This document shows, one piece after another, positions 2,772 through 24,193 of a DNA stretch of 24,193 nt; position 1 is the first letter of the stretch; the number at the start of each line of letters is the position of its first letter. Origin of the DNA: a virus; IMG/VR virus record IMGVR_UViG_3300008113_000666, positions 22,110 through 46,302 of that record; one strand, given 5' to 3'. A program made the translations under genes and the position numbers. Under the pieces are notes generated by a model. It was given only the letters and a program-made list of their open reading frames with translations. It had not been told where the DNA came from and ran no database searches.

Positions 2772-2811
2772 GTAGGTGTGTGGGCCTTTTTATTCACAGA
2801 TCATGACGAGA

Positions 2812-2862: not shown

Positions 2863-3234
2863 CGAGTTATACAGGGGTTGGGGATTCCGCCACATACATG
2901 ACGTCACGTAACGCAACCCGAATCGCAAACGCGAGACCCCGTCCCCTAAGCTTTCAGCTTAATTCAGCATACTTTTCAGCTTTTTTGACTGATTCTGAGG
3001 AAATTAGGCAGCTTTGGTTGAAGCAGAACTGCAAGAAATCGCTGTATTCGGCTAGTTTTCAGCGAGGTACAAACCCTCACCTAAACCTTCCTGCTCAGAC
3101 CTCACGTCAGGGGGGAGTGCACACGGGCGTCACGCTGGCATCGCGGCTGCATCATGCGGGCATCACGTCACGTCACGCGCACACACATCGCCTGCACCTG
3201 CTTGCGCTACGCTTGCGCGATCTGATGGGGTCTT

Positions 3235-3291: not shown

Positions 3292-3324
3292 TTTGGAATT
3301 CTGGGATTCGCCGTAGTACCTTTG
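3292..3324 (+). promoter_or_regulatory. Rightward early promoter P1
   Basis: TTTG (3292-3295), a 21-bp spacer and TACCTTTG (3317-3324) form a -33/-7 promoter. It shares TTTGGAATT, a second GATTC and TTTGTGG with promoters at 4120-4152 and 5173-5205. It sits just after the terminator and drives the gene at 3371 with a leader of about 40 nt. Confidence 0.7.
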
Positions 3325-3370
3325 TGGCCATCGGTTTCGCTGTTGGAGCCGAATCAAATCAACCTCAGCT

Positions 3371-4006
3371 ATGCTGAACTACACCTCCCTCCTCTCTGAC
3401 CTTCGGTCAACTGTCAACGCCCTGTCCTGCCGTCCCACCGCAGAGCGCAAGGACCATGCCCTACAACTCCTTATGGAGTTGGCATCGTCCATCTCAGCCA
3501 TCGACGTTCCCGAAGGGAACAAGGTTGCCAAGGCTAAGCCTCAAGCAGCTAAAGCTGCTAAGCGTCAGGTCAAGCCTGTGAAGACCGCCAAGCCTTCTCC
3601 TACGGAGAAGATTGCTGACAAGCAGGAGATTGCAGCAGCAACCCCGAAGGGGTTTGCTGTGACCAAGGCCGACAAAGCTGTGGCTGCTGACCGTGTTGCG
3701 AAGCAACAAGCCGAGGCTGCTGAGCGTAGCGCCAAGCGTGAGACAGCAGTCGCTTCACCGAAGGTGAATGCCAAGTCCAACGAAGCTATGCTTCGGATGC
3801 AGACCGCCCTTCAAGCTCTTACAGAGCTTGCATCGGCCAACGCTGAAGCTACGAACGAAGTTCGTAACGACATCACCTCACTTGAGGCTAGGGTTGCTGC
3901 CCTCGAGGCTAAGCCGAAGGCTAAGCCTGCTGCTAAGCGTTCAGCTAAGGCTGAAGCCTTTGCTGACATGCTCCTCGACAGCGACTTCGACGGGATGCCT
4001 TTCTAA
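3371..4006 (+). CDS. Lys/Ala-rich histone-like protein with SSB-like C-terminal tip, 211 aa
   Basis: Residues 1-45 form a mostly helical non-repetitive head. Residues about 50-125 are a low-complexity Lys/Ala/Pro/Thr tract with AKAKPQAAKAAK-type repeats, like histone H1-type bacterial and phage proteins. Residues about 130-180 predict a coiled coil (LQALTELASANAEAT, then ITSLEARVAALEAK). After a second AKPAAKRSAKAEA patch the protein ends DSDFDGMPF, an acidic tip closing in Pro-Phe like the protein-docking tail of SSB. I infer a nucleic-acid-binding protein able to dock replication partners. It is the first gene after promoter P1. At the DNA level it is packed with perfect triloop hairpins unrelated to frame. 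The fold is unassigned; it could instead be a scaffold-type protein. Confidence 0.75.
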   Translation: MLNYTSLLSDLRSTVNALSCRPTAERKDHALQLLMELASSISAIDVPEGNKVAKAKPQAAKAAKRQVKPVKTAKPSPTEKIADKQEIAAATPKGFAVTKADKAVAADRVAKQQAEAAERSAKRETAVASPKVNAKSNEAMLRMQTALQALTELASANAEATNEVRNDITSLEARVAALEAKPKAKPAAKRSAKAEAFADMLLDSDFDGMPF

Positions 4007-4031
4007 GGCATTCTGTCGACCCCTCGCGGGG
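3397..4031 (+). repeat. Series of perfect short hairpins inside and just after the Lys/Ala-rich gene
   Basis: Perfect stems around 3-nt loops occur at 3397 (5 bp, TTC), 3506 (6, GAA), 3594 (7, TAC), 3640 (6, GAA), 3694 (6, GAA), 3754 (6, GAA), 3781 (6, TAT), 3812 (8, TAC), 3850 (7, GAA), 3912 (4, GAA) and 3995 (7, TCT, containing the stop codon). Others with loops of about 4 nt lie at 3464 (7 bp), 3544 (6), 3947 (5) and 4020 (4). Stems differ in sequence; only the shape and the loops GAA and TAC recur. They fall in all three codon phases, so protein repeats do not explain them. Confidence 0.7.
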
Positions 4032-4119: not shown

Positions 4120-4152
4120 TTTGGAATTGTGGAATTCAGTTCCGTATCTTTG
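4120..4152 (+). promoter_or_regulatory. Rightward early promoter P2
   Basis: TTTG (4120-4123), a 21-bp spacer and TATCTTTG (4145-4152) form the promoter. The stretch AAATAAATTTGGAATTGT is nearly identical to P3 at 5173-5205. It drives the 46-codon gene at 4179 and probably the following genes. Confidence 0.7.
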
Positions 4153-4178
4153 TGGTCATCAATCAAACCCCAACACTC

Positions 4179-4319
4179 ATGGACAACGTCATGTCACACA
4201 AGTTGCGAATCATCCTCGAATTCGCAGATACCTTCGGTATCGATGCAGTCGTAAACAGCGACGATTTCAACACGCTCTCTGTAAGAGAGCAAATGATAGT
4301 CATGGACCATAACGCCTAA
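4179..4319 (+). CDS. Small acidic protein, 46 aa (or 42 aa), unknown function
   Basis: The frame reads MDNVMSHKLRIILEFADTFG and ends LSVREQMIVMDHNA. Two starts are possible. ATG 4179 gives 46 residues. ATG 4191 gives 42 residues and carries the ACGTCATG context seen before several neighbouring genes, so it may be the true start. Promoter P2 ends 26 nt upstream and the next gene follows after 11 nt. The gene contains two perfect triloop hairpins, at 4227-4241 and 4274-4290. No family is recognised. Confidence 0.6.
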   Translation: MDNVMSHKLRIILEFADTFGIDAVVNSDDFNTLSVREQMIVMDHNA

Positions 4320-4330
4320 CACATAACGTC

Positions 4331-4654
4331 ATGTCAAGCGAATCACGCTACTGGTGGAACGAAGAATACGTAGTATTCATCGCCACAGACCTCAAGAAGT
4401 TGAATGCAGAACTACGTTCTGCGGATGAGAACCACACATGGTACCCAGGTTACCTGACGCGAACCCCATGGGCAGGGCCTGAAGCCGACGATTTTGCGGC
4501 GGTAGATTTCGAGGACCTTCCTCACATGGCAAAGGTGGTCATGGTGTCAGGCCTAGACGGGTATGACGCCACGAGCATGGACGAGTGGGCTGAGGAATTC
4601 CACCAAGTTACCAAGTTGTTTTACAACGCAATCAAACGACAAGTCACACGATAA
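4331..4654 (+). CDS. Acidic soluble protein, 107 aa, unknown function
   Basis: The protein begins MSSESRYWWNEEYVVFIATD and is rich in Asp, Glu, Trp and Tyr. It has no signal peptide or membrane segment. The start has the ataACGTCATG context. The gene follows the 46-aa gene after 11 nt and precedes the 165-aa gene after 11 nt, so all three form one operon from P2. A 7-bp TAC-loop hairpin lies inside at 4406-4422. Its acidic charge is typical of small early phage proteins that bind host factors or mimic DNA, but no specific motif is visible. Confidence 0.7.
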   Translation: MSSESRYWWNEEYVVFIATDLKKLNAELRSADENHTWYPGYLTRTPWAGPEADDFAAVDFEDLPHMAKVVMVSGLDGYDATSMDEWAEEFHQVTKLFYNAIKRQVTR

Positions 4655-4665
4655 CACATCACGTC

Positions 4666-5163
4666 ATGAACACTCTTTCAATGTCTTACAACATTGAGGC
4701 TGCTATGCAAGCCTTTGTCAACGGAATTCAGAATCAAGGCGGAGCCTCGATCATGTTCAAGCCTGTGGGGTCCCTCGGTTCACCATATAAAATGGTGAGT
4801 ATGAGATTCGACACCGCCCCCGACCATGGGTACATGGCGTCATATGAGGACTTCGGCGGTCAAGGCGAAGCCTTCTGTGAATCAACTGAGAATATCTACG
4901 CTTTGCGTAGCTTGTTCTTGGAGCTTGCCATGAGAATTATCGAGAGAGGAGGGCGGTTACCAAACGGCTACGACGACGACGAGATGTACGGATTGTACAT
5001 CGGGGCATGGGTTGAGAACGGCAGGGTCGTGGGCGACATCTCACGTCACTTCACGAATGAGGACGAAGTCCTTGAGTTCTCGATTGCTAACCATCAGCGT
5101 GCCTACTACGACTGCGCCGCAGGATGTGCGGTGAGCGTAGCAGAAAAAGTAACCGTAGGTTAA
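4666..5163 (+). CDS. Soluble protein, 165 aa, unknown function
   Basis: The protein starts MNTLSMSYNIEAAMQAFVNG with the atcACGTCATG context. It contains a mixed alpha/beta body and a Cys-containing C-terminal part (AYYDCAAGCAVSVAEK). There is no signal peptide. It is the last gene before promoter P3, whose A/T-rich upstream region begins at its stop codon. Perfect triloop hairpins lie inside at 4862-4874, 4896-4910 and 5060-5072. No family is recognised. Confidence 0.7.
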   Translation: MNTLSMSYNIEAAMQAFVNGIQNQGGASIMFKPVGSLGSPYKMVSMRFDTAPDHGYMASYEDFGGQGEAFCESTENIYALRSLFLELAMRIIERGGRLPNGYDDDEMYGLYIGAWVENGRVVGDISRHFTNEDEVLEFSIANHQRAYYDCAAGCAVSVAEKVTVG

Positions 5164-5172
5164 AAAAATAAA

Positions 5173-5205
5173 TTTGGAATTGTCGAATTCCTTTCCTTAT
5201 CTTTG
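5173..5205 (+). promoter_or_regulatory. Rightward early promoter P3
   Basis: TTTG (5173-5176), a 21-bp spacer and TATCTTTG (5198-5205) match the consensus. The region is a near copy of P2, including AAATAAATTTGGAATTGT. It drives the 90-aa gene at 5226 with a leader of about 15-20 nt. Confidence 0.7.
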
Positions 5206-5225
5206 CAGCATCGAACAACACAACA

Positions 5226-5498
5226 ATGGAAAACTCAATCAAGTACCCACGCTACTGCTCCGTCACGGGGCAGGGGATGTACGAAGGCTATGTCATCGAC
5301 GATGGAATGTACCATGCCTCAGACGTAGCGTCACTCATGAAAGTTCTTTCAGAACAGTACTGTGTCGAATTCTCTGACGACGACATCGTCATACTTGAGC
5401 AGCTCGACGACCTGTATGATGTGCTGTGGTACTGGACGGAGTGGGAAGATAGCGACATCATCGAAGATGATGCAAACATCACTGAATCAGCAATTTAA
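5226..5498 (+). CDS. Acidic protein, 90 aa, with C-x-x-TG-x-GM-x-x-GY motif
   Basis: The N-terminal half has RYCSVTGQGMYEGYVIDDGM, a pattern I associate with small Bacteroidetes phage proteins in which a Cys-x-x-Thr-Gly turn precedes a beta hairpin. The C-terminal half is strongly acidic (WTEWEDSDIIEDDANITE). No second Cys pair is present, so zinc binding is not supported. It lies 20 nt after the -7 box of P3. Function unknown. A role as an inhibitor or DNA mimic is possible on charge alone. Confidence 0.7.
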   Translation: MENSIKYPRYCSVTGQGMYEGYVIDDGMYHASDVASLMKVLSEQYCVEFSDDDIVILEQLDDLYDVLWYWTEWEDSDIIEDDANITESAI

Positions 5499-5510
5499 TC
5501 ACAAACAAAC

Positions 5511-5532
5511 CCTTTAATTCATTTTCAATGAA
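5511..5532 (+). promoter_or_regulatory. Start-codon inverted repeat with CTTTAATTCATTTT motif
   Basis: TTCATT-TTC-AATGAA (5518-5532) is a perfect inverted repeat whose right arm contains the ATG (5528) of the secreted-protein gene. The same CCCTTTAATTCATTT-type motif with an inverted repeat over the start codon occurs before the ERF gene (12132-12153) and the SSB-like gene (13611-13645). Confidence 0.55.
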
Positions 5533-5887
5533 AACGTTCATTTTTGTTTCTTTGCTCGCCATCGGCGCAGCAGTTTCCGCTCAGTCGAACTTCGAAGCGA
5601 AAACCTCCTCAGGAGGCGGCGGATTTGATGTCACCTCAGGTGTGGCCACCAACGACAAGTTCGTCGTAGACGGCAAGGCATTCGACATCCTGAAAACCTC
5701 TAGTGGAGCACTTTATGTGGTGGCTGTTGGCAAGTCAGGAACTGGATACCCAGTTTGGATTGGCACTCCTACGGAGGATGAGTTCGAAGGTCGGAGAGTT
5801 CACGTCACCCGTAACGGATCGTACTGCGTCTACCTGCTCGGAAAAAGCGGATTCCCTTATGCCAAATGGCTGAATAAGGTGTCCTAA
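5528..5887 (+). CDS. Secreted or periplasmic protein with signal peptide, 119 aa
   Basis: The protein has a classical signal peptide (MKTFIFVSLLAIGAAVSAQ) with a likely cut after VSA at residue 18. The mature part is about 100 residues, Gly/Ser/Val-rich and predicted beta-structured, with one Cys. There is no lipobox and no membrane segment after the signal. A secreted product inside an early block is unusual and suggests action in the host envelope, such as surface exclusion or blocking of other phages. That is inference. The start codon lies in the repeated TTCATTnnnAATGAA motif, and a tRNA-like element follows 7 nt after the stop codon. Confidence 0.7.
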   Translation: MKTFIFVSLLAIGAAVSAQSNFEAKTSSGGGGFDVTSGVATNDKFVVDGKAFDILKTSSGALYVVAVGKSGTGYPVWIGTPTEDEFEGRRVHVTRNGSYCVYLLGKSGFPYAKWLNKVS

Positions 5888-7023: not shown

Positions 7024-7403
7024 GCCGTATCAAGGTCAGGTTTCACCTCAGCAAGGGCGTTCACTTCATGCATTGGCAGGTCAGGATTGGGGATGCTGTC
7101 TCCTACTACGACCCGTCACAAGTGCGACTTACCATGACCAATGCAAGGTTGGTTAACCACGCCTCGACTGCAAAGAAAATCTTTGAGGGTGAGAACAAGA
7201 GTGTGTGCTCATGGGTGGCATGCGAATCACTTGAGGTCATGCCCAAGGATGACGCCCCACTCACACTCACCTACGAGAAGTGCAGGGTGTTCTACAACCC
7301 CAAACGTCAGCCGAATTGGACGGACATCAACGGCAACATCTTAGATGGGACAACCCACAAGACAATCGTTTCAATCGAAAACCGCTTATACAAACAAGCA
7401 TGA
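7020..7403 (+). CDS. Soluble protein, 127 aa, unknown function
   Basis: The chosen start is ATG 7020, coupled by ATGA to the previous stop; an in-frame ATG at 6978 lies inside the upstream gene. The protein reads MSRIKVRFHLSKGVHFMHWQ and appears beta-rich, with FHLSKGVHFMHWQVR, then VSYYDPSQVRLTM and later LTYEKCRVFYNP. It is basic overall and has three Cys. It overlaps the FISUMP gene by ATGA at 7400, so these two products are made together. No domain is recognised. Confidence 0.7.
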   Translation: MSRIKVRFHLSKGVHFMHWQVRIGDAVSYYDPSQVRLTMTNARLVNHASTAKKIFEGENKSVCSWVACESLEVMPKDDAPLTLTYEKCRVFYNPKRQPNWTDINGNILDGTTHKTIVSIENRLYKQA

Positions 7404-7873
7404 AAACTATCCGTAACGGAGACGACATCCAAATCGTTCAGGATATAGACGAGTGGGTTGTCCTTCAAACAGCCGCTATGTGCATCAACCCCGACAACGG
7501 GGATTGCTACTACAACTGGCATGCTGTCGATGACCCACGAGGACTTTCTCCCGAAGGATTCCACGTTCCGTCACATATGGAGTGGCTTGAACTTATTAGG
7601 TGCTGCGGGGGTGACGAAAAAGCGGGTAACTTATTGAGATCGACGAAAAAGTGGGGCGGAACTGGACCTGTCAAAGGATTCAATGCCATCCCTTCAGGAT
7701 GCCGAAGCGGATATGGAATCTTCAACTATGATGAGTTCTACGCGAGTTGGTGGTCTTCCACCCCTAATGGTTCAGCGGCTTGGTACTGCTCCCTGTACTC
7801 TAAGGACTCGATTGCCTACCGAGGCAGCGCCGACTTTCAAAACGGATTCTCTGTACGCTTAATCAAAGATTAA
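7400..7873 (+). CDS. FISUMP-domain protein (Fibrobacter succinogenes major paralogous domain), 157 aa
   Basis: Residues 36-64 (CYYNWHAVDDPRGLSPEGFHVP then EWLELI) and 116-154 (SWWSSTP, AWYCSLYSKDS, NGFSVRLIKD) match the FISUMP (Fib_succ_major, TIGR02145) pattern YNWxAVxDPRGLCPxGWHVPSxxEW ... WWSST ... GFSVRLIKD. Known members are mostly exported Bacteroidetes and Fibrobacter proteins. This copy lacks a signal peptide and consists of the domain plus a 30-residue N-terminal extension, so it would stay in the cytoplasm or join the virion. It is translationally coupled to the upstream 127-aa gene. A binding or adhesin role is plausible, but the family has no agreed biochemical function. Confidence 0.85.
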   Translation: MKTIRNGDDIQIVQDIDEWVVLQTAAMCINPDNGDCYYNWHAVDDPRGLSPEGFHVPSHMEWLELIRCCGGDEKAGNLLRSTKKWGGTGPVKGFNAIPSGCRSGYGIFNYDEFYASWWSSTPNGSAAWYCSLYSKDSIAYRGSADFQNGFSVRLIKD

Positions 7874-10761: not shown

Positions 10762-10959
10762 ATGTATGTGATCACAGCAACAAGAAATTCTCGATTAGAG
10801 ATTTTCACCTTTCCTGTCGGTGTCTTTGACGACAGAGACGCAGCTATCCAAGCAGCGAAAGACCACAAAGAAGAGTTCGGGAAGCATTACGACTACTACG
10901 TATACGCCTTCGAGTTAAACACAGCAAACGCAAGTTCACCACCTATCTTCATGGTATGA
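10762..10959 (+). CDS. Small protein, 65 aa, unknown function
   Basis: The start at ATG 10762 gives MYVITATRNSRLEIFTFPVG, then DDRDAAIQAAKDHKEEFGKH, then a Tyr-rich strand. An in-frame ATG at 10723 is rejected because it lies inside the upstream gene. The predicted beta-beta-helix-beta layout is compact. The stop overlaps the ATG of the DnaA-like gene by ATGA, so the two are coupled. Confidence 0.65.
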   Translation: MYVITATRNSRLEIFTFPVGVFDDRDAAIQAAKDHKEEFGKHYDYYVYAFELNTANASSPPIFMV

Positions 10960-11345
10960 GTAAGGAAGTAATGGATCTCGTAGACGAGTGCTACATGTGT
11001 ATCTTGGGATTTGAGATGACGCGAGAACAAAAAGCGATGGCACTGAAGTCGAGGCTTGCGGAACATGTAAGACCTCGCTCAGCTATCTTGGTAGCCTTGA
11101 CTACAAGGTTCAGTATCTCCGAAGTCGCAAGAACGCTTGGCATAAATCACGCAACGGTCATCCATCACCGTAGAAATCACGATGGAAACTACAAGCACTG
11201 GGGAGGCTATGACGTCATGTACATCACGGCTCTCGAAGTGGTCAACAGAAACCTTTTAAGCAACAGAAATGAACAAGTTAATTTTGATCCTGCCGCTAAC
11301 TCTTGCGGCGTGCTCCAGCACGAAGAAGGCGGTCCACCCTGCTGA
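10956..11345 (+). CDS. DnaA domain IV-like DNA-binding protein, 129 aa
   Basis: Residues 36-74 contain RPRSAILVALTTRFSISEVA followed by RTLGINHATVIHHRRNHDG. This matches the helix-turn-helix and the DHTTV-like signature loop of DnaA domain IV, which binds DnaA boxes. The ATPase domain of DnaA is absent and the whole protein is 129 residues. An N-terminal helix pair (residues 1-35) precedes it. Such stand-alone domains in phages may bind the origin, titrate host DnaA or act as repressors; the sequence does not distinguish these. The last 25 codons overlap the lipoprotein gene in another frame. Confidence 0.75.
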   Translation: MSKEVMDLVDECYMCILGFEMTREQKAMALKSRLAEHVRPRSAILVALTTRFSISEVARTLGINHATVIHHRRNHDGNYKHWGGYDVMYITALEVVNRNLLSNRNEQVNFDPAANSCGVLQHEEGGPPC

Positions 11346-20013: not shown

Positions 20014-21246
20014 TTATTGTTTTATTTTTTGTATTACCTCCATTATGTCTTCTGGCTTTCTTGCTGGGTGACGTTGTAGCTGCAAGCCTCCGCAGTTACA
20101 TTCATCGCCATACACCGACAGCAACAAATTTAAGTCATTTGACGTTACGTTATGGTCTAGATCTAAATCGCCATCAGTACATCCCTGACATCCATAGTAG
20201 GAGAGAAGATACAGAAGGTCACTAGTTCCGACATGGCAGTCACCATCAAAATCTCCGAAACAAAAAGTTTCGTCAGAGAAAAGCTCTGATCTCTGGTACT
20301 CAAGCATGGCATGCATCCTGTTTATCTGGCCAGGAGTAAATGTGTCTCTGCACTCTTCTGGGCAGTAGTCCATGTGATTATTTGCCTGAAACGGAACCCC
20401 ATAATACGTCACCTCTGGGCAATAGTAGCCAGGCTCCTCAGGGCACCCTTGGCTTACTTTGGTAGGAGGGGTGTCGCATATGTAGTCGCCAGTGTGTTCA
20501 CAGTCACCAATGTTCTGGCCGCAGGAAGAGACGATGCCGTCTCCGTTCTTGAATACGTGGTGAAGGCCACAGTAATGCCCCATCTCATGAGTGAGCGTCT
20601 CGTTTTCAAAACGCCACGTAAGCTGAGGTCCAGTGACGCCAAACACCTCAGTCTCAACCCATACTCCGTCAAGCGTTGACCAAGGGTAGTATGTCACCCA
20701 TGCGAACCCAAGGATAGACGAACAGAAGTCTGGGGCCACGTAGACATTGCAATACTCTGCTGTGTTCCACTTAACCATGTTTGTCCACTGAGCCATCTGC
20801 GTCCCGTAATTAGGGAAGCACACCCCTCCATCTTGCCTATAAGAGCCTGCCCAAGAGAATGACCCAAGGTGTGTGTAAGTGGTATGAACAAGATTGAATG
20901 ATATGTTAGTTTCATCGAAGTCAACATTTAGCTGTTCAAATGCCCCTTGGATTACGTCTAGGTTTATGTTGCTGTTTGGAAAGTATTGATTATCATGCAG
21001 TACGTGAACAACACAATTTATTTCTTTTTCTGTGTTTGTTCTGTCGTAGTTAACCATACCCATGGGCAATGGATTTCCCTGAGATCCAAGGACAACACAC
21101 TCTTCTTGGGCAAGGGCAGGCGATCCGCACGAAGAGAAGCACAAGAAAAGAGTTATCACTATTATGCCTATAGCCTTTAAAAGAGCAAAGGCATCACAGT
21201 CGTGTATCTCTTGATAAAATCCAACTGGCTTTTTTCTTATCTCCAT
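20014..21246 (-). CDS. Secreted M43-type zinc metalloprotease with dockerin-like C-terminal repeats, 410 aa
   Basis: HEMGHYCGLHH (residues 220-230) is the HExxHxxGxxH zinc site of metzincins, with E221 as general base and ligands H220, H224 and H230. M292 in NHMDYCPEEC is the Met-turn, as in M43 pappalysin-like proteases. Residues 24-46 form a hydrophobic segment ending SPALA-Q, a likely signal peptide after an unusually long cytoplasmic N-terminus. Residues 331-380 hold two Ca-binding dockerin-like loops (GDFDGDCHVGTSDL and DGDLDLDHNVTSNDL). Many Cys suggest disulfides in the periplasm or outside. The gene overlaps the holin stop by 1 nt (TAATG), so it occupies the place expected for a lysis enzyme. 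Confidence 0.88.
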   Translation of the reverse strand: MEIRKKPVGFYQEIHDCDAFALLKAIGIIVITLFLCFSSCGSPALAQEECVVLGSQGNPLPMGMVNYDRTNTEKEINCVVHVLHDNQYFPNSNINLDVIQGAFEQLNVDFDETNISFNLVHTTYTHLGSFSWAGSYRQDGGVCFPNYGTQMAQWTNMVKWNTAEYCNVYVAPDFCSSILGFAWVTYYPWSTLDGVWVETEVFGVTGPQLTWRFENETLTHEMGHYCGLHHVFKNGDGIVSSCGQNIGDCEHTGDYICDTPPTKVSQGCPEEPGYYCPEVTYYGVPFQANNHMDYCPEECRDTFTPGQINRMHAMLEYQRSELFSDETFCFGDFDGDCHVGTSDLLYLLSYYGCQGCTDGDLDLDHNVTSNDLNLLLSVYGDECNCGGLQLQRHPARKPEDIMEVIQKIKQ

Positions 21247-21698: not shown

Positions 21699-24193
21699 CT
21701 TGATTCTAAGTACTTGTTTTCTATTACCTGTATCAAGTACTTGGAGTGAGGCATGAAACTTCCATCTGGCAAGTACTCAAGCATGGAGTTGTATTTCTGA
21801 TTTAGCTCGTCGAGTGCTTCAATCTTTTCTGAGTCAGACATCCCCTTAAATTTATCGGTCTGCATGAATTGCTGCATGTCTTTGTACCTCAAGGAATTAG
21901 ACATCTCAAGTATGTTGTTTAGTTCTTCAGCCGTGAGGGAGAATCTAAAGTCCTCTGGCGTGTTTCCAACAAACTCATACTTAGCTCCGCTAGCCATAAG
22001 GTTTTGCATGGCTTTCTGAGCTTTACCCCTGCTGAAGGATGGAACCTCAAGCTTTCTGTGTACAGAAGAGGCGTAGTACGGAGTGCCTATAGCCTTTGGT
22101 AACTCTCCAGTTCTCATATATAGATTGAGTATCTCTATCGAGACTGGATCAGTTCCAGACGTGCTGGTCTTGTAGGGGTCAAACATGTAGTAAGCGAACT
22201 GCCTCCCGCCCTTTGGCGCCTGACTAATTCTTTCTCCTTTCCAGTTCACCTTGACGGGGAGACCGTCAGTATTAAATGTTCTTTCTTTTACATGGTTGAT
22301 AAGCCTGTCTGAAAGATCAGCATCTCTCTTGTCTGGCATAAACTCTCTTGTAGCCATATTAGCACCAGAGAAGAAGTTAGGGATGGCCATTGCACTGTAC
22401 GCCTTGAACAAGCTCTCAGCATATTTCTCCATGGCTATGTTAAGTTTCTCTGGATCCGATTCTGTTATTATCTCAAAGGCTCCGTTTAGGCCCTGTAAGA
22501 AACTCTGGTCCATCATATAAGATATAAGCGCTGCGTTCTCCATGCCGAGCGCCCTCTTGAGTATGTTGATTCCTTTGGTGGGTTCTTTTATGGCGTCTTT
22601 AGCCGCATCTATAGTCATGCTTTGGGCGTATGCACCCATTATAGAACCCAGCACACCAAGGGTCTGGTAGCTCTTGTATACATCATCTGTTCTTGGTGCT
22701 GGATCCTCTCCTCCTAACCATCTCTTAAGAGCCGAGACGTTTATGCTGTTAGGGGGCATTACATCATACATCAGATTTGTTTTTTCATCGTCCTCCCAGT
22801 CTATACCAGGGCTTATTATTCCATTGGCGATAAGCTGTAAAGACATTTGAGTAAACACCTGGCCAATCATAACCTTTGTCGCGTTTTTTGATGCTTCGTC
22901 AGCCTTGCCATTCATGATATTTACAGCAACTCTAGCCGACCCAAACGCTGGTGATATATACGTAAGGGATTCCTCCATAAAGTTGGCAATCGTAGTAACA
23001 TAGGGGACGTTTGATCTTATGAAGAACTTGAAGAATCCTGGAGCGTCAAATCCTTTTGAGTTCTCAAACATCTTTCCAAGGCCTCTAGATAAATTACTTA
23101 TAATCCACATGCTACCTCTAGCAAGACCGCCTTCTTTCTGGAATGTCATCTTGGCTCCTTCGTCCTTAGCTCTATCCATAGCTTCTCTGCTTGGGTACTT
23201 AAGGAATCTAGCAAGCTCCTCTCCTTTAAGTCCCATGCCAACACCTATGTGATAAAGCTCTGTTGCCTCTGCATATCTTCTGAATGGTATGTCACCAAGA
23301 GACAGTAACCTAAACATAGTTTCAGCAGGGATCCCGAAGGTACCAGCCACAAGAAGCTTTGCTCTTGAGTTCAGGGATGCTCTTCCGCTTTTGGTCTGGG
23401 GAAGGTCATTAGAAAGAGCAGCAATCAAGGATCTGACTGGCATAAAACCTCTATCCATTCTCCATTCTGTTGTCTCTCTTTGTTTTCCAGTTACAACCTG
23501 CTCTGCCGCTTCGACCCATCCAGACCCAAATTTCTTCAGTCCGTACAAGTACGCAGCCATACTGATTCTCTTAGCTGGGGACTTTACCCCCATGGCATTA
23601 AGAAGCTTTTCTATTGGGTAAGACGCCACGTCCACCATGGTTCTTGGGAACATCTGCGCTATGTTATAGGCTATGTTTTTAGCCTGAGACATAGACGTCA
23701 AAAGATTACCCTGCATAAGCTGTATCCCTATGTCTGACCAGCTCTTGTCAACCAAAGTATTTACCATGGTGTCAAGCTTGTTCTGAGCTTCTAGATAGGA
23801 GTTCATAGCCTCCTTAAGTTCAGCCTCAAGATCCTCTCCAGCTATAGCTCTGTCAACAAGGGATTCATAATTTCTGTAAGAAACCATATAGTTCTCAGCC
23901 GCCTCCTGAAGTTTGGTCTTCATATCGTCGGTAAGAACTTTGCCCTGACTTTCCGCAAGGCTAGAAATCATGCCATATATGCCAAACGAAGTAGACGTTT
24001 TCAGTTCTCCGAACTGTCTGAGGAGCCTACCAATAGAGGTACCCATCTTGGCAAGATCCTCAAGGACAGACGGTATCGCTTCAGTCCTTCCTTCAGCTTG
24101 AAGTCTATTTATTAGCTCGATGCCAGCCAGAACACCTACATCATCATTTCTATTCATAAGGGACCCAAGCTTGTCTCCCCTCATCATCGAGAT
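21695..24193 (-). CDS. C-terminal part of a very large phage virion-type protein (at least 830 aa), cut by window edge
   Basis: The frame is open to the last base of the window; two codons (Ile-Ser) lie before the first visible ATG at 24187, so the protein probably continues upstream. It is mostly helical, with coiled-coil-like stretches (EDLEAELKEAMNSYLEAQNK) and several hydrophobic segments (RSLIAAL, VTTIANFMEESLTY, LGVLGSIMGAYAQSM). Motifs such as NIAQMFPRTMVDVASYPIEK and GIPAETMFRLLSLGD resemble the large polyvalent or internal virion proteins of podo- and siphophages, which may be ejected with DNA. This is family-level pattern memory. It is coupled to the holin by ATGA at its stop. Confidence 0.7.
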   Translation of the reverse strand: MSMMRGDKLGSLMNRNDDVGVLAGIELINRLQAEGRTEAIPSVLEDLAKMGTSIGRLLRQFGELKTSTSFGIYGMISSLAESQGKVLTDDMKTKLQEAAENYMVSYRNYESLVDRAIAGEDLEAELKEAMNSYLEAQNKLDTMVNTLVDKSWSDIGIQLMQGNLLTSMSQAKNIAYNIAQMFPRTMVDVASYPIEKLLNAMGVKSPAKRISMAAYLYGLKKFGSGWVEAAEQVVTGKQRETTEWRMDRGFMPVRSLIAALSNDLPQTKSGRASLNSRAKLLVAGTFGIPAETMFRLLSLGDIPFRRYAEATELYHIGVGMGLKGEELARFLKYPSREAMDRAKDEGAKMTFQKEGGLARGSMWIISNLSRGLGKMFENSKGFDAPGFFKFFIRSNVPYVTTIANFMEESLTYISPAFGSARVAVNIMNGKADEASKNATKVMIGQVFTQMSLQLIANGIISPGIDWEDDEKTNLMYDVMPPNSINVSALKRWLGGEDPAPRTDDVYKSYQTLGVLGSIMGAYAQSMTIDAAKDAIKEPTKGINILKRALGMENAALISYMMDQSFLQGLNGAFEIITESDPEKLNIAMEKYAESLFKAYSAMAIPNFFSGANMATREFMPDKRDADLSDRLINHVKERTFNTDGLPVKVNWKGERISQAPKGGRQFAYYMFDPYKTSTSGTDPVSIEILNLYMRTGELPKAIGTPYYASSVHRKLEVPSFSRGKAQKAMQNLMASGAKYEFVGNTPEDFRFSLTAEELNNILEMSNSLRYKDMQQFMQTDKFKGMSDSEKIEALDELNQKYNSMLEYLPDGSFMPHSKYLIQVIENKYLESR

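Follow-up and report, generated by a model that had tools for sequence, protein, structure and literature searches.

Given that one gene of a phage was reported to carry perfect hairpins about every 40 nt, in all three codon phases, the question arises whether such an array is a by-product of the encoded protein, the outcome of a mutational process or a structure maintained by selection, and, in the last case, whether it works as RNA or as DNA. The window that we analyzed, the whole stretch of 24,193 nt (positions 22,110 to 46,302 of the virus record IMGVR_UViG_3300008113_000666), is part of a 46.3-kb phage contig and encodes, among others, an ERF annealing protein, a DUF3799 PDDEXK protein, a BT4734-like/DnaB-like primase-helicase, and a B12-type ribonucleotide reductase. 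The terminase and the primase have their relatives in phages of Flavobacterium, Cellulophaga, and Maribacter, from which we infer an aquatic Bacteroidota host. The phage also encodes an M43 (pappalysin-like) metallopeptidase (20014-21246, minus strand), which has a C-terminal DxDGDCHV dockerin-like stretch and adjoins a holin-family gene, and, in its early region, a protein with a Fib_succ_major (FISUMP) domain (7280-7873, plus strand). The promoter of the hairpin-bearing gene, which is the first early gene and is here called gene 1, and two further early promoters (Table 1) are near-identical, reading TTTGGAATTNNNGAATTC...TANNTTTG. Each has an inverted repeat (GGAATT-N-GATTC at gene 1) that separates its −33 box from its −7 box; this common repeat suggests a shared operator of the early genes.

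The gene-1 open reading frame has 11 perfect stems with 6 bp or more and a loop of 3-4 nt, whereas codon-preserving shuffles of the gene (n = 1000) averaged 1.16 and never exceeded 6, so that none of them reached 11. For loops of 8-9 nt, the gene is no richer than the same shuffles. All five dense genes tested exceed their shuffles, with 0 of 1000 reaching the observed count in each. The excess over chance claimed in the preliminary description thus stands, but its expectation of 0.16 hairpins for the gene was too low because the K/A-rich codons raise the chance rate. The hairpins that it placed at 3464, 3506, 3544, 3594, 3640, 3694, 3754, 3781, 3812, 3850, and 3995 are all present and perfect, with stems of 6-8 bp, and the one that it placed at 3947 exists but begins at 3940. 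Their loops, said to be mostly GAA or TAC, are less uniform than that (five GAA and two TAC, then TAT, TCT, TTAT, TAAA, and TAAG), and the three codon phases are indeed all represented, though unevenly, 8 of 11 loops starting at phase 2. The gene is packed as described, but the array extends further: its density falls through four small genes downstream to ~5.5 kb and reaches background near 5.6 kb. The window's own leader upstream of gene 1 holds few hairpins. At downstream early genes, a small hairpin (for example aaaatcTACgattttATG) separates a TANNTTT box from the start codon, and, judging from this layout, the hairpin at the ATG would form the very 5′ end of the mRNA of such genes.

Table 1. 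Positions of the hairpins and of associated features; window coordinates unless a related phage is named.
Feature	Position	Strand	Basis or remark
DnaA-box-like site TTATTCACA, one mismatch	2790..2798	+	the window's one such site, upstream of the array
Block ATACAGGGGTTGGGGATT...GACCCCGTCCCC...CAGCATACTTTTCAGCTTTT	2868..2990	+	by-eye match to the conserved start of the relatives' hairpin leader
Gene-1 promoter, Bacteroidota type, TTTG...TACCTTTG	3292..3332	+	direct repeat, pattern search, sequence
Gene 1, 211-aa basic K/A-rich protein; its DNA is the core of the hairpin array	3371..4006	+	ORF
Perfect hairpin caactccTTATggagttg	3464..3481		
Perfect hairpin gttcccGAAgggaac	3506..3520		
Perfect hairpin agcagcTAAAgctgct	3544..3559		
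Perfect hairpin cttctccTACggagaag	3594..3610		
Perfect hairpin aaccccGAAggggtt	3640..3654		98% relative: loop change G3646A, stem intact
Perfect hairpin tgttgcGAAgcaaca	3694..3708		98% relative: loop change G3700A, stem intact
Perfect hairpin ttcaccGAAggtgaa	3754..3768		
Perfect hairpin cgaagcTATgcttcg	3781..3795		
Perfect hairpin caagctctTACagagcttg	3812..3830		
Perfect hairpin tacgaacGAAgttcgta	3850..3866		
Perfect hairpin ttcagcTAAGgctgaa	3940..3955		
Perfect hairpin atgccttTCTaaggcat	3995..4011		spans the gene-1 stop codon, closes the dense array
Copies of the gene-1 promoter	4120-4160 and 5173-5206		direct repeat and pattern search
Sparser continuation of the array, next small genes	4227..5542		hairpins at 4227, 4274, 4364, 4406, 4780, 4896, 4983, 5176, 5375, 5456, 5518, 5527
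Hairpins between TANNTTT box and start codon	5518-5542; L127: 5755-5780, 6048-6070		
129-aa candidate initiator	10956..11345	+	Bac_DnaA_C E=0.0011, weak similarity to DnaA domain IV, below Pfam's cut-off
106-aa candidate phage SSB	13642..13962	+	by tail only: SSB-like C-terminus EEDLPF
Palindromes GTGTCGTTAACGACAC in L166 (MW202828)	13745, 14264, 14540, 14808, 15144, 15596, 15886		

The same array recurs across a group of uncultured phages. Strict searches found only one relative, at 98% identity, while searching with the reductase yielded 80; among these were gene-1 homologues at 64% to ~28% amino acid identity, whose alignments brought the total to ~30 contigs. Nearly all of these homologues are hairpin arrays in the same place, and even the sparsest full-length ones (L157, L158, and L160) still exceed codon shuffles, the fragment L155 showing no such excess. 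In one large clade, that of the L127- and L138-like phages, the array also fills the non-coding leader of ~450 nt upstream of gene 1, and in the relatives it runs from near a putative promoter (putative start near −450) to roughly the stop codon of gene 1. Elsewhere in the related phages (~700 kb) there is no array and never more than 7 hairpins per 800 bp, and none was found in the cultured or circular relatives scanned (Elemovirus, MW202828, Maribacter phage Panino, and MW202701). One of these, MW202828 (L166), has seven copies of a single perfect palindrome, GTGTCGTTAACGACAC, in its early region, which are probably operator sites. At the end of the leader, the relatives have nested outer stems and conserved unpaired motifs. 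In L127-L146, ~60 nt upstream of the gene-1 ATG by alignment column count, lies a separate conserved bulged hairpin (AGAAGAATGGAATTCTATGAATTCTTCTTCT or ATGAAGAAGGAGTCTTATGACTTCTTCAT), preceded on its 5′ side by two hairpins with the conserved internal loops CGCATGAG...CCGCAGGA inside covarying outer stems; these may form an independent regulatory element.

The anatomy of the arrays is uniform in everything but sequence: a repeat search finds nothing in common among the hairpins. Across 36 arrays, stem length peaks at 6-7 bp for triloops and at 7-8 bp for 2-nt loops, whereas the background for other loop sizes falls steadily, and stems of at least 10 bp are almost absent in loop classes 2-4. 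The median spacing in the relatives is 39 nt, in keeping with the interval of about 40 nt first described, with ~38% of the array length in hairpins and no helical phasing found in the spacing. A Y-R pair closes 90-95% of the triloop hairpins against a background of 51%; it is mostly C-G, which closes 65-75% of the triloops, and, of the loops closed by C-G, 43-50% read GNA or the complementary TNC, compared with 13-17% in the background (~3-fold). In L127-L160, leaders tend to carry their C-GNA-G loops on the template strand and coding parts on the sense strand, an opposite bias that is partly a lysine codon effect and for which the origin-linked reading set out below has no explanation. We therefore dropped the sense-strand bias of GAA loops as an RNA or strand signal. 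We likewise dropped the reading of contig ends within the array (7 of 64) as sequencing drop-out, since ends are also common 2-3 kb downstream.

The array is real and is kept by selection across dozens of phages despite changes in its letters. In three independent phage pairs that are 98-99% identical, changes amount to 2/845 in stems versus 83/4550 in spacers (Fisher P=1e-4), so that stems change ~8-fold more slowly than spacers, while loops behave like spacers. At greater distances, stems change by double Watson-Crick substitutions, and homologues thus have the covarying stems that selection on structure implies. Of the two outcomes named in the preliminary description as refuting it, similar counts in codon-preserving shuffles and homologues without covarying stems, neither was obtained. 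When 17 arrays are aligned, most hairpins are either perfect or missing (a bimodal pattern), and between many perfect ones there are one to six compensated pair changes; in the leader, all 17 phages form a hairpin at site −119, in 12 distinct sequences, 16 do so at site −166 with 10 sequences, and 15 at site −276 with 11, all of these being counts over related sequences with non-independent cells. Hairpin positions are therefore largely conserved while the stem letters turn over by Watson-Crick compensation. Two explanations without structural selection have to be set against this picture. A by-product of protein sequence or codon use in K/A-rich repeats has a negligible probability: lysine codons do favor C-GAA-G on the coding sense strand, and the Lys-rich repeats of some homologues also raise the number of pairs around 8-9-nt loops, but codon-preserving shuffles never give the observed counts, and the non-coding leader is hairpin-dense too, which refutes this explanation for the main effect. 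Mutational maintenance deserves more weight, although we consider it improbable. Short-range template switching, which can generate stems and make them perfect (PMC8794818) and has been proposed for nematomorph mitochondrial coding palindromes (PMC6649704), would here create and perfect hairpins at a hot spot, such as an origin, with selection in a minor role. The scarcity of intermediates between perfect and absent hairpins, the transversion types among the double changes (28 of 57), and the replacement of overlapping hairpins by one another between relatives are all as this process would have it. However, the three 98-99% pairs contain no double stem change where unbiased conversion predicts ~8 (Poisson P=5e-4), stem lengths have a maximum at 6-8 bp and do not simply decay, the non-coding leader keeps its hairpins in place, and nothing similar occurs elsewhere in the genomes. 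Template switching may well supply new hairpins at this locus, but as the sole cause, which the preliminary description had offered beside selection, it is weakened.

If selection acted on RNA folding, G-U pairs should be tolerated and A-C pairs should not. Terminator-like stems with one mismatch in the same genomes have a GU:AC ratio of 24:2, whereas one-mismatch stems in the arrays (stems of at least 7 bp) have 33:23 (Fisher P=0.002 for the comparison) and those of the leader alone 3:4. At internal and closing positions of the aligned hairpins, the ratio is 36:2 when counted in cells but only ~3 versus 1 in independent events. The covarying leader helix has no one-sided changes, and both sense and antisense strands fold better than codon shuffles (z −2.8 and −4.2, respectively, as RNA; −2.5 and −2.9 as DNA). 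Searches of Rfam gave no match at the gathering score in the window and only sub-threshold ones in L127 and L144. Covariation is strong, but the preference for G-U that covarying helices of a structured cis-regulatory RNA would have is little or none, and the constraint looks Watson-Crick and strand-symmetric, which points to hairpins or cruciforms of DNA more than to ordinary structure in mRNA. Because the pairing lacks a clear wobble preference, both strands fold comparably, and the loops follow C-GNA-G, we lean towards an action of the hairpins at the DNA level. Extrusion of the phage N4 promoter hairpins from supercoiled DNA needs a C:G closing pair and a loop G and A (PMC4496689), and hairpins of this type (a 5-7-bp stem and a C:G-closed 3-nt loop with 5′ G and 3′ A on one strand) are enriched in the arrays without being universal. 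An RNA function is nonetheless conceivable, if doubtful, with the leader and gene-1 mRNA forming an armored or protein-binding chain of hairpins that might, for example, protect the first early transcript from nucleases, titrate a host RNA-binding protein, or serve autoregulation by the gene-1 protein. It would fit the coincidence of the relatives' array with one transcription unit, from the putative start to the stop codon, the hairpins at or near the 5′ ends of downstream early genes, and the unpaired motifs and nested stems of the leader; the mismatch ratios, the leader helix, the equally good folding of the antisense strand, and the Rfam result all speak against it. Selection on structure, as originally proposed, is hence supported, while its RNA form is weakened. 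We regard it as very unlikely that the hairpins serve a virion-packaged RNA polymerase as promoters, in the manner of phage N4, even though their size, triloop, and C-G closing rule are those of N4 early promoters and related phages encode virion-sized proteins of 2473 and 3249 aa. With 20-40 copies per locus, they share no recognition sequence, and the promoter of the window's gene 1 is of the ordinary Bacteroidota type. The giant proteins of G013 and G044, examined as candidates for an N4-like virion polymerase, gave no RNA polymerase match in PHROGs, Pfam, PDB sequences, or a simple motif search.

The protein encoded by gene 1 belongs to no Pfam or PHROG family, and the gene was without a match in the phage collection and bacterial genomes searched. 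Its C-terminus, ...DSDFDGMPF, resembles an SSB tail, and most homologues have an acidic C-terminal tip ending in PF (DFDGMPF, DDFPF, DDLPF, FDESPF, or EDINVPF), the L127-like clade having a gene-1 protein without this tail. An AlphaFold model, which at a mean pLDDT of 69 is too weak for a fold search, has an N-terminal helical hairpin, further helices, and long disordered parts. In one relative (L116, 3139-3877, minus strand), gene 1 is duplicated in tandem, and both copies lie inside the array.

Our leading reading, to which we give a probability of about 0.4, is an origin-linked array of extrudable DNA hairpins. We favor it because of the DnaA-box-like sites, the AT-rich block, the weakly DnaA-like protein, and the basic gene-1 protein with its SSB-like tail. 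In the relatives, the 1 kb upstream of gene 1 has DnaA-box-like sites at a density of 0.97/kb, 7-fold above the 0.14/kb of other regions; the AT-rich block comes next and then the first hairpin. The DnaA-like protein is the 129-aa candidate initiator of Table 1; the 106-aa candidate SSB listed there has no Pfam match. The GC skew turns near the array, but this is confounded by gene orientation, which diverges there too. On this reading, the working form would be single strands, or cruciforms extruded by negative supercoiling, and the array might act at an origin of replication next to the early promoter. After unwinding of the region, the two strands could fold back, keep the bubble open, and limit coating by SSB, and the folded array might then offer a loading place for the phage helicase-primase and for the basic protein of gene 1 with its SSB-like tail. 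Hairpins in single-stranded DNA are linked to the start of replication in single-strand initiation and primosome assembly, and the array, as modeled here, would resemble these sites in that link but differ from them in hairpin number, the known ones having one or a few defined hairpins. More tentatively, and with less confidence than we place in the origin-linked reading, one may speculate that the array is a sequence-free structural element of replication or transcription, which would act through folded strands or cruciforms, not through sequence recognition, together with the SSB-tailed protein that it encodes. Several observations count against an origin and DNA model: the promoter-to-stop extent of the array, the nested stems, and the unpaired motifs are RNA-like, the window's leader is poor in hairpins, the domain of the DnaA-like protein scores below Pfam's cut-off, and the L127-like clade is tailless.

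Among the families and RNA models searched and the open-access papers in PMC, none describes such an array, in line with the initial impression that it was new, and it is apparently undescribed; N4 promoters and nematomorph palindromes come nearest in kind, and each fails a defining test. Like the array, the palindromes in nematomorph mitochondrial genes (PMC6649704) are many perfect inverted repeats inside protein-coding genes, perfect or absent, and gained and lost between species. However, they reach up to 284 bp and are scattered over the mitochondrial genes, with no agreed function, whereas the phage stems are of 6-9 bp with loops of 2-4 nt, are confined to one early transcription unit and its neighbors, and are position-conserved in a non-coding leader under purifying selection; long perfect repeats in several unrelated coding genes, the mark of the nematomorph type, are not seen, the hairpins being confined and stems of at least 10 bp nearly lacking. 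The N4 early promoter hairpins (PMC4496689) share with the array a short stem, a C:G-closed 3-nt loop with G..A, and a place in the early region, but they are few, with conserved recognition bases read by the virion RNA polymerase, while the array has 10-40 hairpins of free stem sequence, and neither shared bases nor such a polymerase gene was found. RNA stems made by template switching (PMC8794818) are similar in being perfect and in changing by multi-base compensation; there, however, a mutation mechanism in RNA genes is at issue and not a local array of hairpins, and stem divergence in the array is suppressed. Finally, REP and other palindromic repeats of bacteria (PMC3733652) are short, hairpin-capable palindromic DNA in many copies, yet REPs share a family sequence, whereas the array hairpins share none, with up to 12 different hairpins at one leader site in 17 phages, and lie inside a gene and its leader.

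What this locus presents is one DNA stretch that meets two codes, a protein and a chain of perfect hairpins at fixed places with changing letters. Its close and distant relatives form a natural data set for separating hairpin selection from template-switch mutation. The use of short cruciforms and single-stranded DNA hairpins in vivo has long been debated, N4 promoters being among the few accepted examples, and the Watson-Crick-only pairing of the array offers a testable system for it.
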